A stretch of DNA of 64,000 nt from Micromonospora avicenniae (GTDB lineage Bacteria; Actinomycetota; Actinomycetes; Mycobacteriales; Micromonosporaceae): positions 1-64,000 of the forward strand of contig NZ_FTNF01000014.1 in assembly GCF_900156065.1 (NCBI RefSeq). The letters are read 5' to 3'. The notes beneath the pieces are model-generated. The model was not told where the DNA came from. It saw nothing but the letters and a program-made list of their open reading frames with translations, and ran no database searches. Below, in pieces: positions 1 through 32,936 of the stretch. The position numbers were made by a program, and so were the translations under genes. Each line of letters starts with the position of its first letter. The stretch's first letter is position 1.

Positions 1-171
1 CCGCAGTACGCCACCACCGCGTTCCTGAAGGGTTTGAAGCAGGTCGACGGCTGGCACGACATGCCGCTGACCCAGGCCGCCCAGACCGTGCAGGTGTCGG
101 CCTACCCGGACGCCTACGCCCAGTGGGAACAGCAGGCCGCCGACCTCGTCGCCCACTACTGGAACAGCTGA
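1..171 (+). CDS. C-terminal end of a cell-wall hydrolase-like protein (partial)
   Basis: The window opens inside a reading frame that runs to a TGA at 169-171, leaving 56 residues. The remnant (PQYATTAFLKGL, then VDGWHDMPLTQAAQ, SAYPDAYAQWEQ and a final HYWNS) resembles the end of actinobacterial secreted lysozyme-like proteins, in which a core of the NDHDSVGLFQQR type is followed by YATxAFL..L..V.GW..MPLT.AAQ.VQ.SAYP.AY..WE..A. That family is known to me from Micromonospora and Streptomyces genomes, where it is often mislabelled as a heavy-metal transporter. The catalytic part lies outside the window, so the activity cannot be confirmed. A strong hairpin follows 23 bases after the stop. Confidence 0.6.
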   Translation, partial: PQYATTAFLKGLKQVDGWHDMPLTQAAQTVQVSAYPDAYAQWEQQAADLVAHYWNS

Positions 172-194
172 CAACCACACAGCAATGACATGAC

Positions 195-230
195 CGTTGG
201 CCGGCACCCGAACCCGGGTGCCGGCCAACG
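195..230 (+). terminator. 16-bp perfect hairpin, terminator of the first gene
   Basis: Left arm CGTTGGCCGGCACCCG (195-210) and its exact complement at 215-230 enclose a four-base AACC loop, 23 bases after the stop at 171. There is no T-tract, which is common for actinobacterial terminators. Confidence 0.8.
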
Positions 231-530
231 GCATATCCGAACCCGGCCAACCCCCGGAGCCGAGCTGGCCAACCCCCGGAGCCGAGCCAGACGCGGCCGG
301 CCCCGGGACCGAGCCGGACGCGGCCAGTCCCGGGACCGAGCCAGACAACGGCGCATCCACCCACAGCCCGAGCCGGACCAGCGGCGCACCCACCCGCAGC
401 CCGAGCCGACCCGAGCAGCGGCGCATCCAAACACGGGCCGAGTCAGGCGGCCGCGCAGCCACACGCGGGCGAGCCAGGCGGCCGGTGGCAGCCGCGCTGG
501 CTGGACGACGATCGGTTGGCGCGGCGCTGG
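231..530. repeat. Degenerate GC-rich minisatellite in a gene-free gap
   Basis: This gap holds successive decaying tandem units. A 21-base unit GGCCAACCCCCGGAGCCGAGC occurs exactly at 245-265 and again at 267-287. It grades into units built on CCGGGACCGAGCC (about 299-345) and then into a longer unit starting GGCGCAYCCACCC (about 350-440). The unit length drifts from 22 to about 32 bases. The frames across it translate to Pro/Ser/Glu-rich nonsense without start signals, so I call no gene here. Confidence 0.7.
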
Positions 531-10212: not shown

Positions 10213-12507
10213 TCACTCCTTCTCGACGGAGACCGTGTTGGGCTTGGCCGCCCGCTCGTCGGTGGTCGGTTTGCTGGGGCGTTTGCCGTTCTCACCGGTG
10301 CTGGTGATCTTCGTGGGGGTGGCGCCCCGGCCGCCCTCGCCCGGTACCGCGGCGACCGTCGGCTCACCGTCCACGGCCGCACCGGCGGCCCCGTCGTCGA
10401 CCGTCGTGACCGGCTCGGCCACCGGGCGAGCCTTCGGCTGACCGGCAGCCTGCGGTTCACCCTCGTCGGTTGCCGGCTCCGGCTTGGTCCCGGTCGCCGC
10501 GCCCGCTTCGCCGGCGCTGTCGGTTCCGCCCTGCGCGCCACCCGCCCCCTTGGGGGCCGCGCCCGCGGTGGCGGGCCGCGCCGTGGCGTCGGCGGGCTGT
10601 GCGGTCGCGGTGACCGGCTGCGCCTTGCTGTCCGGCTGGGCCTTGCCGGCGACCGGCTCGCTCTTGGCGCCGCCCGTGCGGGACGTGCCCGCCGGCTTCG
10701 CCGTCGGGTCGTCGCCCGCGCCCCGTCCGACGTCGACCGGCCGGGCCGCCACGGCCGGCCCCGCCGCCGGCCTGTTTCCGGCCGCACCCGCGGGTGGAGG
10801 CGAGGTCGGCCCGTCGGAACCAGCCGGCTCCGCGGCGACCTTCTCCCGCAGCTCGGTCAGCTGTCGCTGGAGCTCGTCGGACTCCTGCCGGGAGTTCCAG
10901 GTCTCCTGGCGCAGATCCGCGAGCTGTTGCTGGGCCTGCGCGATCTCCAGCATCACCTGTGCGAGCTGCTGCCGGCCGGACGCGACCTCCTGCTGCGTCG
11001 CCGCGAGGTGCTGCTGGGTGGTGGCCAGGGCCTGCTGGGTCGTCGCCGCGTACTCCTCGAACTGCCGACGGGACGTCGCGACGTGCTCGTCGGCCTTGCG
11101 GCGCTTGTCGTTCGCGTCGGCCTCGGCTCGGCGCAGCAGCTCGGTGGCCTGTTCCTCCGCCTGCCGGCGCAGCGTGGCCGCGTCGCGTTCGGCGGCCTGC
11201 CGGACGCGGTCGGCGCCCTGCTCGATCTCGTTCTTACGGGCCGTGTATTCGGCCTCCAACTGGTCGCGCCGGGCGGTGAACTCGGTCTCGAGTTCCTGCT
11301 GGCGCCGGGTCGAGGTGGTCTCCAACTCCTGCTGGCGGCGGGAGAAGGTCGACTCCAGCTCCTGCTGGCGGGACTTGTGCTGCTTGTCCAGCTCGTCGCG
11401 GCGCTTGGCGAACTCCTGCTCGGCGGCGGCCCGGCGCTGGGCCAGCTCGCGGTCCGCGGTCTCCCGTCGGGAGCTGACCTCCTTCTCCACGCCCGCCCGC
11501 CAGGCGCCCAGCTCCTGCTGGGTCTGCGCCCGGGACTGCTGCACGTACGCCTCGGTCTCGGCGCGCATCCGCTGCACGTACGCCTCGGTCTCGGCGCGGC
11601 CGCGCTTGGCCGCCTCGGACGCCTGCGTGGTCATCCGCTCGGCCTCCTGCTGGGCCTTGGACCGGGTGGCCCGGCCCGCCATGGCGGCGTCGTCGATGAT
11701 CTGCTTGGCCTCCCGCTGCGCCTTGGCATGGGTGGCCCGCCCGGCCTCGGTCGCCTGGTCGACGAGACGCTTCGCCTCCTGCTGCGCCTTGGCGTGCACC
11801 TCCTTGGCGGCGTCCCGTAGTTCGGTGGCCTCCTGCTGCGCCTTCTCCAGCGTCGTCCGAGCGGCCTCGCGCAGCTTGGTGGACTCCTGCTGGGCCCGGG
11901 TGTGGATCTCCTTGGCCGCCTCCCGCAGCTGGCTCGCCTCCTGTTGCGCCCTGGCCAGCTCGTCCTGCGCGTTCCGGCGCAACTTCGCGGATTCCTCCTT
12001 GGCGGTCCGCAGCGCGGCCTCCGACTCGGCCTTGCGCGCGTTGGCCTGCCGCTCCTCCTCGGCACGCCGCGCGGCGAGGGCGATCTCGAAGTCCTTCAAC
12101 GCCTTCTCGGCCTGCGCACGGGCATCCTCGATGATGTGCTCGGCGGCGGCCCGCCGGGAGTCGATCTCATCGTTGGCGACGCGGAGGATCTCCTCCGCCT
12201 GCTCCTCGGCGAGGGTGAGGATGTGCTCGACGCGGGGGCCGAGGTGCCGGAACGAGGCCCGGTCCACCACACCTACCTGTTTGCGCACCTGCGCGAGGTC
12301 CCGCTGGAGCACCTCGACCTGACCGGCGAGCTTGTGGATCTGGGTGTACGCCTGCTCGCGCTCGGCCGCGAGAGCTGTGATCTCGTGCTCCGCCCGCGCG
12401 ACGTATCGGTCGACCTGCTTCTTCTCGTACCCCCGCAGAGCGGTCTCGAAGCTGGGCTCCGTGGCCACGTCCCCGCCGAGAGCGAACAGTTCCTCGCCGT
12501 GCGACAT
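10213..12507 (-). CDS. Large DivIVA-like coiled-coil protein (Scy/FilP type)
   Basis: This 764-residue protein has a DivIVA-like N-terminus (ALRGYEKKQVDRYVARAEHEI, residues about 23-43), then an almost continuous coiled coil to about residue 575 and a Pro/Ala/Thr/Lys-rich, probably disordered tail of about 190 residues. The coil contains recurring blocks such as KAQQEATELRDAA and AKAQQEAKRLVDQA, and a later series RRQQELET. This architecture matches the polarisome and cytoskeletal proteins Scy and FilP of Streptomyces, which organise tip growth with DivIVA. There the pair is adjacent to the epimerase-thiolase-meaB genes, as here. Which of the two genes here equals Scy or FilP is unclear: order and length point in opposite directions. 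ATG at 12507 with GAGGATGAGGG upstream. Confidence 0.8.
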   Translation of the reverse strand: MSHGEELFALGGDVATEPSFETALRGYEKKQVDRYVARAEHEITALAAEREQAYTQIHKLAGQVEVLQRDLAQVRKQVGVVDRASFRHLGPRVEHILTLAEEQAEEILRVANDEIDSRRAAAEHIIEDARAQAEKALKDFEIALAARRAEEERQANARKAESEAALRTAKEESAKLRRNAQDELARAQQEASQLREAAKEIHTRAQQESTKLREAARTTLEKAQQEATELRDAAKEVHAKAQQEAKRLVDQATEAGRATHAKAQREAKQIIDDAAMAGRATRSKAQQEAERMTTQASEAAKRGRAETEAYVQRMRAETEAYVQQSRAQTQQELGAWRAGVEKEVSSRRETADRELAQRRAAAEQEFAKRRDELDKQHKSRQQELESTFSRRQQELETTSTRRQQELETEFTARRDQLEAEYTARKNEIEQGADRVRQAAERDAATLRRQAEEQATELLRRAEADANDKRRKADEHVATSRRQFEEYAATTQQALATTQQHLAATQQEVASGRQQLAQVMLEIAQAQQQLADLRQETWNSRQESDELQRQLTELREKVAAEPAGSDGPTSPPPAGAAGNRPAAGPAVAARPVDVGRGAGDDPTAKPAGTSRTGGAKSEPVAGKAQPDSKAQPVTATAQPADATARPATAGAAPKGAGGAQGGTDSAGEAGAATGTKPEPATDEGEPQAAGQPKARPVAEPVTTVDDGAAGAAVDGEPTVAAVPGEGGRGATPTKITSTGENGKRPSKPTTDERAAKPNTVSVEKE

Positions 12508-30928: not shown

Positions 30929-31648
30929 TCAGGTGACCAGACTGGCAAAGACGATCACGTTGTTCAGGTAGCTGCGTGCCGTCTCGTCGAACTGGCCACC
31001 GCAGGTGACCACCCGCAGGCCGGGTTCCTCGCTCGGCCCGTAGACCAACTCGGTGGGGAACTCGTCCTTCGGGTACGACTTGACCGAGTCGACCCGGAAG
31101 GTGGCCGGCTGGCCGTCCGATCGTCTGACCGTGACGGTGTCGCCGGGTTGCAGGGCACCCAGCTCGAAGAAGACCGCCGGGCCGATCTTGGCCGAGTCCA
31201 CGTGGCCGACGATGACGGCGTTGCCGACCTCGCCGGGGCTCGGTCCCGGCTCGTACCAGCCCGCCAGTTCGGCCTGGTCCAGTGGAGGCACCTCGACCGT
31301 CCCGTCTTGCTTGGTCCCGAGCGACATGATCTTCGCGTTCACCCCGATCCGGGGGATCTCGATGGTGGTGGGCGTGGCGCGTGGAAGCCCGGCCGGCGCC
31401 GCTTCCCCTGCCTGCGCCGATTGGTCTCCCTCGGCCGGCTGATCCGCCTCGGCGAGCTGGCTGGACTCGGGGGCGGCCTGGGCCAGGGGCTGGGGCGGAC
31501 GGGGCGCGGGCGTGGTCTTCAGGGAGGCGCCGATCATCCCCGCGCCGAGCACTGCGAGCAGGGCGACAACGGCGGTGCCGGCGGCACGCCACGGTTTCCC
31601 GTGACGGCCGCCGGCCCGTGTCGCCGTCGCGTCAGGCGACCGACTCAT
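30929..31648 (-). CDS. Class F-like sortase
   Basis: This 239-residue transpeptidase probably attaches the protein encoded just upstream to the cell wall or stabilises it. It has one N-terminal membrane segment (about 24-42), a Pro/Ala/Gln-rich linker (about 45-90) and the sortase barrel (about 95-239). Catalytic residues are visible: His149 in VGHVDS, Cys216 in VVTCGG, Arg225 in ETARSYLNN. The short barrel fits the actinobacterial class E/F group; F is my preference. Its start overlaps the end of the surface protein gene by 17 bases, so the two are translated as a pair. The strong terminator at 30879-30920 follows. Confidence 0.88.
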   Translation of the reverse strand: MSRSPDATATRAGGRHGKPWRAAGTAVVALLAVLGAGMIGASLKTTPAPRPPQPLAQAAPESSQLAEADQPAEGDQSAQAGEAAPAGLPRATPTTIEIPRIGVNAKIMSLGTKQDGTVEVPPLDQAELAGWYEPGPSPGEVGNAVIVGHVDSAKIGPAVFFELGALQPGDTVTVRRSDGQPATFRVDSVKSYPKDEFPTELVYGPSEEPGLRVVTCGGQFDETARSYLNNVIVFASLVT

Positions 31649-32834
31649 CGGTCCGCCGACGACGCATCAGTACGATCCCGCCCAGGGCGGCAGCGCCGAC
31701 GAGGCTGGCGCCACCCGCGGCCAGGTTCATGTCGGTGCCGCCGGTCGTGCCGCCGTCACCACCGTCGACCCCACCGTGCGGCAGGACGATCAACTTGCCC
31801 TCGCCGCAGGAGCCCTTCAGCTCGTAGTGGCCCGGCTTGGCGTGCTTGTCGACCTTGGCCTCGCCGTAGTAGACGAAGTCACGCTTGTGCTCCCAGCTGT
31901 CCTCGCGGCCGTAGTCGCCCGACTCCTCGCCCTTGCGGCTGTCCTCGCGGCCGTAGTCGTGCGACTCCTCGCCCTTGCGGCTGTCCTCGCGGCCGTAGTC
32001 GTGCGACTCCTCGCCCTTGCGGCTGTCCTCGCGGCCGTAGTCGCCCGACTTCTCGCCGTCCCAGCCGTTCTCGTGGTCCTTCTTGTCGCCGTTCTCGTGG
32101 TCCTTCTTGTCGCCGTTGTCGCCGTAGTCCCCACGGCCCTCGGCGTCCTGGCCGGTTTCGTAGCCGTTCCAGTCCTTGTTGTCCTCGTGCTTGCGGTCCT
32201 CTTCCTTCTTGCGGTCTTCCTCCTTCTTGCGGTCCTCTTCCTTCTTGCGGTCCTCTTCCTTCTTGTGGTCGTCGGCGGAGTCCGCGGCGCCGGCACCCTG
32301 GCCGCCCGACCAACCGTTCTCGTAGTCGCCGCCGTTGTCGTAGCGGCCTTCCTGCTCACGGCCCGAGTCCTCGCGGCCCTTGTCGTCCTTGCCGTGCTCG
32401 TCCTTGCCCTTGTCGTCCTTGCCGTGCTCGTCCTTGCCGTCGTGGTCGCGGCCCTTGTCGTCCTTGCCGTGCTCGTCCTTGCCCTTGTCGTCCTTGCCGT
32501 GCTCGTCCTTGCCGTCGTGGTCGCGGCCCTTGTCGTCCTCGCGGCCCCAGTCGCCCCGGTCGTCCTTCTTCACGGGCTTGAGGTCGACCTTGCCGGTGAC
32601 CTTCGACCACACGAAGGCGTGCTCCTGCTTCTCGGAGCAGATCTCGAGAAGCTTGACCTCTTCGCCGGCCTTCACGGCGTGGGGCTTGGCCAGGACCTTG
32701 CCGTCCCGGTCCTTGCCGTCGTGGTGCCCGTCCGCGAGCGCGATTCCGGGGGTGAACACGAGGAGGGACGCCCCACCGAGGGCGGCGCCCGCGACGACCT
32801 TCCCGAGCATCTTCTTAGCCATGACCTGCGTCAC
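31632..32834 (-). CDS. Repeat-rich sortase-associated surface protein
   Basis: This 400-residue secreted protein has a signal peptide (about 5-35, ending ALADG), a short segment with strands and Cys66 (LLEICSEKQEHAFVWSKVTG), about 230 residues of Lys/Asp/Glu/Gly/His repeats (about 89-318), then further strands with Cys343 (VYYGEAKVDKHAKPGHYELK, GSCGEGKLIVL), a Gly-rich linker, DMNLAAGG, a hydrophobic helix and RRRR. The two strand segments together look like one Ig-like domain, of a type common in actinomycete wall proteins, interrupted by the repeats. No LPXTG occurs; LAAGG stands where the sorting motif is expected. GTG at 32834 follows AGGGATGGA; the ATG at 32822 is an alternative. The sortase gene follows directly. 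Confidence 0.8.
   Translation of the reverse strand: MTQVMAKKMLGKVVAGAALGGASLLVFTPGIALADGHHDGKDRDGKVLAKPHAVKAGEEVKLLEICSEKQEHAFVWSKVTGKVDLKPVKKDDRGDWGREDDKGRDHDGKDEHGKDDKGKDEHGKDDKGRDHDGKDEHGKDDKGKDEHGKDDKGREDSGREQEGRYDNGGDYENGWSGGQGAGAADSADDHKKEEDRKKEEDRKKEEDRKKEEDRKHEDNKDWNGYETGQDAEGRGDYGDNGDKKDHENGDKKDHENGWDGEKSGDYGREDSRKGEESHDYGREDSRKGEESHDYGREDSRKGEESGDYGREDSWEHKRDFVYYGEAKVDKHAKPGHYELKGSCGEGKLIVLPHGGVDGGDGGTTGGTDMNLAAGGASLVGAAALGGIVLMRRRRTDESVA
31897..32050 (-). repeat. 42-bp tandem repeat inside the surface protein gene
   Basis: Units begin at 31897, 31939, 31981 and 32023 (last one partial) and encode DYGREDSRKGEES plus H or G. The middle copies are nearly identical at DNA level, so the array is young or kept homogeneous. 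Confidence 0.9.
32379..32528 (-). repeat. Two 75-bp tandem repeats inside the surface protein gene
   Basis: Two copies of a 25-residue unit, GRDHDGKDEH followed by GKDDKGKDEHGKDDK, at residues 103-127 and 128-152. A KKEEDR hexapeptide is repeated four times at residues 191-214 (about 32193-32264). Confidence 0.88.
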
Positions 32835-32879
32835 TCCATCCCTGTTGTCCTGAACTCGGCTGCGCCCGAGCTAAGACCG

Positions 32880-32936
32880 ACGTTAGACCGTTTCATGACT
32901 TATCAAGGGAAAGATTCGTGTTCCTACGTACATAGG
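32880..32936 (-). promoter_or_regulatory. Promoter region of the surface protein-sortase operon
   Basis: On the minus strand TTGATA (32906-32901) and TAACGT (32885-32880) are 15 bases apart, in the most AT-rich stretch nearby. Upstream at 32923-32936 CCTACGTACATAGG is a near-palindrome (12 of 14) that could bind a regulator. Confidence 0.4.

Follow-up and report, generated by a model that had tools for sequence, protein, structure and literature searches.

In the available part of the text of PMC13251363, which deals with Actinoplanes missouriensis, the functions of class F sortases are said to be unknown. According to the same part of that source, this bacterium possesses four class F sortases and a quadruple deletion gave no phenotypic change. 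The class F role may thus be minor in laboratory conditions. The genes adjoining srtF1 and srtF4 were suggested there as substrate genes, and no pentapeptide motif was found in them, as far as that part of the text goes. SspA of the same species is anchored by a class E sortase, as stated in the available part of PMC13251363. Among the matches listed in searches of the open-licence literature, no title or abstract dealt with a sortase substrate that has a split Ig-like domain. On bacterial surface proteins with single charged helices the matches listed contained nothing relevant, and the word 'GVDTG' appeared only in an allergen context.

In this study we analysed 64,000 nucleotides of Micromonospora avicenniae (contig NZ_FTNF01000014.1, positions 1 to 64,000; this whole stretch is referred to as the window), which contain a gene for a predicted surface protein whose 3' end is overlapped by 17 bases by a class F sortase gene (Table 1). 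We hold with considerable confidence that the locus encodes a secreted, probably wall-anchored, split Ig-like protein with an expanded charged loop, together with a class F sortase. The first-pass annotation of this DNA had proposed that strands on both sides of a long run of charged repeats form one Ig-like domain; the pairing of a sorting signal with a class F sortase is an addition to that observation.

Table 1. Features of the predicted wall-protein locus, with positions in the window.
Feature	Position	Strand	Basis
Class F sortase	30929..31648	-	NCBIfam NF033748, 209.4 bits, cut-off 166; Pfam PF04203
ORF of the putative wall protein, 400 aa	31632..32834	-	ORF list
GVDTG-type sorting signal, residues 352-393: GGVDGGDGG, hydrophobic stretch, RRRR	31656..31781	-	NCBIfam NF058571, 30.3 bits, cut-off 29
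Ig-like domain, second part, residues 319-352, three strands, Cys343	31779..31880	-	Profile A1 columns 45-80; AlphaFold2
Cys343 codon	31806..31808	-	Kept in 95/95 genus split, 20/20 outside split, 25/25 unsplit
Charged insert, residues 89-318, within one domain loop	31881..32570	-	pLDDT mostly <50; D/E 36%, K/R 23%, zero Cys
14-residue repeat DYGREDSRKGEESH, 3.9 copies	31896..32057	-	Tandem Repeats Finder, 42-nt unit, 95% match
8-residue repeat GDKKDHEN, 2.4 copies	32064..32121	-	Tandem Repeats Finder, 24-nt unit, 97% match
Island GAGAAD...DWNGYETGQDAE, residues 178-232	32139..32303	-	Island profile, 25.6 bits
KKEEDR 6-residue repeats, predicted single charged helix, residues 187-217	32184..32276	-	Tandem Repeats Finder; AlphaFold2
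25-residue repeat, 2.3 copies	32371..32539	-	Tandem Repeats Finder, 75-nt unit, 100% match
Ig-like domain, first part, residues 45-88, five strands, Cys66	32571..32702	-	Profile A1 columns 1-44; AlphaFold2
Cys66 codon, end of strand 59-66	32637..32639	-	Kept in 95/95 genus split, 20/20 outside split, 23/25 unsplit
Signal peptide, residues 1-34	32733..32834	-	Read from sequence: KKMLGK, hydrophobic stretch, ALA/D
Conserved 5' leader with short hairpin (GCTCGG..CCGAGT)	32823..32925	-	Alignment of 91 genus loci

From its N-terminus the encoded protein consists of a signal peptide, a conserved stretch containing Cys66, charged repeats over about 230 residues, a conserved stretch containing Cys343, a hydrophobic C-terminal stretch and RRRR. 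Translation probably begins at the ATG of residue 5 (32822), since the upstream GTG is out of frame in two relatives (L113, L114) and absent in five (L098, L101, L107-L109), and the ATG is retained.

The approximately 100 bases 5' of the gene show strong conservation across 91 Micromonospora loci, and this leader is probably the promoter plus the 5' UTR. It is present in a single copy in its own genome, all other matches having E values of 4 or worse, and it matched no Rfam family. The closing pair of its six-pair hairpin is standard in 86 of the 87 loci that could be parsed out of 91 (G-C in 65, A-T in 19). Consensus folding of 45 of the 91 sequences, left after near-copies had been removed, gave -3.3 versus a column-shuffle mean of -2.4 (sd 2.2), which indicates no global structure; the short hairpin alone stands.

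In the AlphaFold2 model of the window protein, built on an alignment of 43 sequences, five strands (46-50, 53-55, 59-66, 73-77 and 81-87) precede the insert and three (320-327, 335-341 and 345-351) follow it. An Ig-like beta-sandwich is made of two facing sheets with seven or so strands; this is the arrangement of the model, its eight strands being contributed by the two halves. The pLDDT reaches about 90-96 in the blocks of ten residues that span 51-90 and 321-350 and is mostly below 50 in the insert, except for a charged helix of KKEEDR repeats at 187-217. The pTM values of the two AlphaFold2 models are low (0.35 for the window protein, and 0.40), for much of which the disorder of the insert accounts. 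The same fold was predicted by AlphaFold2 for a natural short-insert orthologue (L259, 292 aa).

VIA-align fitted model residues 40..353 to single Ig-like domains as one unit, the best being 5ldy_B (Z 7.7, 81 aligned, rmsd 2.7); 2cxk_B, an 85-residue TIG domain, gave Z 6.7 with 77 aligned. With Z values up to 7.7, none reaching 8, and with the top rows tied, the Ig-like strand arrangement is clear and no single family is singled out. In the PDB, Foldseek had no match at E<=0.001, the best value being 0.31 for KIR Ig domains. Pfam matched no family with the whole protein at E<=1, nor with the joined core at E<=10, hence no Ig family, and no named Ig family of NCBIfam was matched. The missing Pfam Ig match weakens the membership of a named family, not the fold.

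With the C half alone as the query, matches at E 2.3e-30 or better were found in 106 of 121 same-genus genomes (Micromonospora sensu GTDB, with nearly all titles reading Micromonospora and some Salinispora or Verrucosispora). The remaining 15 genomes had weaker matches only (best E from 1.9e-14 to 2.4e-4), which were excluded as orthologues. At 95 of the 106 loci both halves lie in a single open frame, with an insert between them in every case. The other 11 loci stand outside the insert statistics, six being truncated by contig ends and five having the halves in different frames. In these five (L032, L059, L067, L088 and L091) the two frames overlap within the repeats, which may be read either as length or phase variation of the repeats or as assembly error.

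A joined profile of 80 columns, made from ten genus proteins minus the insert, had matches at E<=0.01 in 93 of 200 family genomes and 7 of 197 class genomes (same-genus genomes included). These matches are of two kinds: split proteins align in two pieces, and in unsplit ones the junction is spanned by a single alignment of about 66-76 residues. Beyond the genus we found 20 split genes in 14 genomes of other genera of the family (L165-L178), with the insert at the identical position; a locus with the C half only (L158) was not counted, and two single halves at contig ends (L164 and one L165 ORF) were not counted as split. One outside genus (g32; L165-L168, L170, L171, L173) has tandem substrate-sortase-substrate-sortase pairs, and its second substrate carries a short Pro/Gln-rich insert of 71-93 residues in place of charge.

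The unsplit set comprises 25 natural proteins: 21 of at least 47 junction-crossing family rows (20 plus a paralogue from the genome of the window) and four more from the class search. The joined profile scored all 25 higher than did the N half, the C half or an order-swapped control. The values for L179 were 34.9 bits joined, 19.7 N, 9.4 C and 17.6 swapped; for the own-genome paralogue (L121) 32.4, 19.0, 7.8 and 18.2, respectively; and for the weakest, L198, 16.2, 12.5, none and 10.5. As the 25 proteins align across the junction, relatives devoid of repeats possess a complete domain, and it is in one loop of this domain that the insert lies. A weak match of a paralogue to a phospholipase C C-terminal domain, below the cut-off, was set aside.

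The first-pass annotation had regarded two findings as fatal to its one-domain proposal, namely halves that fold separately and repeat-free homologues devoid of an Ig domain. Neither was seen: both halves lie in one confident predicted sandwich, and the 25 unsplit proteins carry the whole domain. The proposal is thus upheld by the AlphaFold2 sandwich, the VIA-align fit over 40..353 and the joined profile.

The ORF translation agrees with the earlier placement of Cys66 before and Cys343 after the repeats, and the window protein has no further cysteine. Of the 91 genus proteins whose start could be recognised, 87 contain two cysteines and no more; four genus proteins that lack such a start are left out of this count. 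The first cysteine is missing from two of the 25 unsplit relatives. In the usual Ig pattern the cysteines stand on the B and F strands. Considering this pattern and the conserved pair, a cross-sheet Cys66-Cys343 disulfide very probably joins the two halves: the secreted protein would close into one sandwich, and the bond would staple the base of the loop.

We suggest that the loop between the fifth strand (81-87) and the sixth (320-327) has been expanded into disordered, negatively biased polyampholyte repeats. Repeats of 25, 14 and 6 residues with nearly identical DNA had been noticed before, and Tandem Repeats Finder recovered all three (100%, 95% and 92% match) and added a fourth, 8-residue (24-nt) type. 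The scores of the 75-, 42-, 18- and 24-nt arrays were 338, 289, 141 and 109 (threshold 50), the 18-nt unit of KKEEDR being repeated 4.5 times at 32190-32270. Two 25-residue copies are base-for-base identical, as are the first two of the three listed 14-residue copies. The KKEEDR helix has block pLDDT values of 87 and 93 over residues 191-210. In another part of the window (11287-12003) there are tandem repeats of 33, 66 and 108 bases, possibly within a gene for a coiled-coil protein.

The insert is hypervariable. In the 95 genus proteins its length is 61-652 aa (median 218), a range that holds between species, with one genome per species searched. Identity to the seven nearest relatives is 91-98% over the first domain part and 44-55% over the insert; the sequence DYGREDSR is found in the window strain and in none of six relatives (L008-L013). 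The 95 genus inserts have a mean charged fraction of 0.49 and a mean net charge per residue of -0.15 (-0.24 to -0.06), so a negative bias is retained. None of the 115 split proteins has lost the insert, the minimum being 61 aa in the genus and 71 aa outside. The near-identical DNA repeats would permit changes of loop length by recombination, with the domain and the anchor remaining constant.

The insert might be regarded as a neutral repeat expansion that is tolerated in a surface loop of a protein in which only the domain and the anchor matter. Its length, composition and repeat units do vary freely among species, and the second copy found outside the genus has a short Pro/Gln-rich insert. 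However, not one split protein lacks the insert, all 95 genus inserts keep their negative bias and 57 of them contain a conserved island (see below), which makes this explanation, in our opinion, rather unlikely.

The island, of consensus GxGGGAAD...DWKGxEHGQDAE, scores above 10 bits in 57 of the 95 genus inserts, in none of the 20 outside and in none of 575 shuffles, and it begins 0.23-0.71 of the way along the genus inserts. Because 30 of these inserts (25 once copies are removed) went into its profile, the count demonstrates recurrence and cannot serve as an independent test. A GxGG motif, more loosely defined, occurs in 72 of 95 genus inserts (14% of shuffles) and 8 of 20 outside (3% of shuffles), and the W..E..GQDA part in 65 of 95 genus inserts (5% of shuffles) and none of the 20 outside. 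In the window protein the middle of the island is pulled apart by the KKEEDR expansion. A search of its own genome with the island stretch gave nothing better than E 0.24.

Such a recurring element could mean that the stapled loop is a display scaffold, which presents the island (DWKGxEHGQDAE) to a partner and uses the repeats to set its distance from the wall. Its presence in 57 genus inserts and in no shuffle agrees with this idea, as does the looser GxGG..D motif in 8 of the 20 outside inserts. On the other hand, 38 of the 95 genus inserts do not rise above 10 bits, the profile was derived from the very inserts it scores and finds nothing outside the genus, the W..E..GQDA part is likewise missing from all 20 outside inserts, and in the window protein the island is itself split by KKEEDR repeats. 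We therefore consider a display function an unlikely one.

In the explanation that we prefer, the loop expanded from the split Ig-like domain acts as a hydrated charged brush or spacer, which in many species bears the conserved island. This is the least certain step of the whole explanation, and we offer the brush or spacer role tentatively, as something that the loop perhaps does.

At the C-terminus of the window protein, the signal matched by the GVDTG-type model reads GVDGG, a G replacing the T. There is no LPXTG-like pentapeptide, the sequence reading LPHGGVDGGDGG, and no LPXTG anchor model of Pfam or NCBIfam was found at E<=1. An adjoining or overlapping same-strand ORF for a sortase of class F type accompanies 94 of the 95 genus split genes, all 20 outside split genes and all 25 unsplit ones; the sole miss (139 of 140 loci are linked) lies at a contig end.

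The neighbouring class F sortase is likely to be the enzyme that anchors the wall protein. It would very probably cut the GVDGGDGG signal and join the protein to peptidoglycan, and the loop would then project from the wall. The relation between the enzyme and its substrate rests on genetic linkage, and from it we infer cleavage and anchoring. As class F sortase roles are described as unknown (PMC13251363, available part), this enzyme-substrate pair is worth testing.

In the genome of the window all six sortases over the class F cut-off have an upstream gene that ends in a sorting-type signal. The upstream partners of the other five (L269, L271, L272, L273, L274) have motifs such as GVETGAGG, GPATGGGG and GAPAGSGG. 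The Ig-like profile picks out three of these six partners (the window protein and those of L269 and L273); of the other three, one is a DUF4397 protein and two have no family over the cut-off. The GVDTG_CTERM cut-off of 29 is passed by the window protein and the DUF4397 partner (40.7 bits) only; the L269 and L273 partners reach 19.5 and 15.0 bits. A likely substrate can thus be named for each of the six class F sortases of one genome.

The survey was extended to 36 sortase loci, i.e. seven from the own genome and the best match of each of 29 further genomes, among the matches listed. An upstream ORF with the motif was found at 21 of them by a strict pattern, which was written after the partners had been seen, and at 5 more by eye, one of which (L303) has no hydrophobic tail; 10 loci had none. 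As a control, the strict pattern ends 3 of 351 opposite-strand ORFs. Among the ten partnerless loci are L275, which is below the class F cut-off, and L295 and L300, which begin near a contig end. Seven class F sortases (L284, L285, L288, L291, L293, L294, L296) have no recognisable upstream partner in 1,500 bases, and their substrates may be encoded elsewhere.

In a tree of 57 sortases, for which every eighth genus locus was taken (12 of 95), the sortases with split partners and those with unsplit partners are separated by one branch. Its support is 82/75, which is not strong; it appears in 84% of 200 bootstrap trees, and none of 500 label shuffles gave a value as low. This pattern would fit a split that arose once, along with a sortase lineage of its own. 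L177, the first-branching split relative in the drawn tree, has an insert of HHDDKKW/F repeats, in which the usual units are absent.

It seems improbable that the C-terminal helix keeps the protein in the membrane and that the neighbouring sortase serves another target. The absence of an LPXTG motif would fit this, and so would the proteins adjoining srtF1 and srtF4, in which no pentapeptide was reported in the available part of PMC13251363. However, the GVDTG_CTERM match is over its cut-off, the sortase is linked to 139 of 140 split and unsplit loci, and a like motif stands upstream at 26 of the 36 class F loci (5 of them by eye), compared with 3 of 351 opposite-strand ORFs. The halves are 230 residues apart and each is well conserved alone, as would be expected if two small domains or motifs, independent of each other, were connected by a disordered charged linker, but such an arrangement is highly improbable and largely refuted already, given that unsplit proteins score higher with the joined profile than with the halves or the swapped order, that both halves are required to fill single Ig-like domains in VIA-align, and that the Cys pair is co-conserved.

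A single Ig-like domain with an expanded, probably stapled loop therefore remains our preferred reading. It would be a natural example of how a small, probably disulfide-bonded domain can hold, in one loop, a disordered insert several times its own size. The split gene is found in 106 of 121 same-genus genomes while the sequence of the insert changes freely. Going further, we hypothesize, with somewhat less than even confidence, that Micromonospora maintains a constant, disulfide-stapled Ig-like display frame for a hypervariable island loop, with a private class F sortase for each frame, and that one sortase with one upstream G-V-x-T/G-G-x-G-G substrate is the rule for many actinobacteria.

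Among the described surface proteins, Periscope proteins resemble the window protein in being wall-attached (which is predicted here), in having near-identical coding repeats and in their variable length (PMC9704523, available part). According to the same part of that source, their repeats are folded domains of about 50-165 residues that form a rod-like stalk, whereas the repeats of the window protein are units of 6-25 residues, mostly disordered and located inside a domain loop. Periscope repeats are longer than 50 residues and fold into a rod; those described here, one helix apart, are predicted to be disordered. SspA of A. missouriensis is a disordered, sortase-dependent wall protein from the same bacterial family, features that are predicted in part for the window protein too. 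It differs in being 191 aa long, with a mature part predicted to be wholly disordered and no other domain found (PMC13293333, available part).

Counterparts in the family Micromonosporaceae are AMIS_11010 and AMIS_36440, which have a signal peptide, a C-terminal membrane stretch and a basic tail, as the window protein does, and adjoin the SrtF1 and SrtF4 genes, as the window gene adjoins a class F sortase (PMC13251363, available part). This comparison was made by description only: the main text has no occurrence of 'Ig-like', and its available part, in which the authors carry the two proteins no further, names no charged insert. The pair formed by GVDTG sorting domain proteins (NF058571) and class F sortases (NF033748) is represented in the window by two products, each over the cut-off of its own model, with a G for the T in the former; the NF058571 model covers 44 C-terminal positions only and is silent on an Ig-like domain or an insert. 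A sorted Ig-like wall protein is a known kind of protein, and the interest here lies mainly in the hypervariable, probably stapled loop and in the tie to class F sortases.
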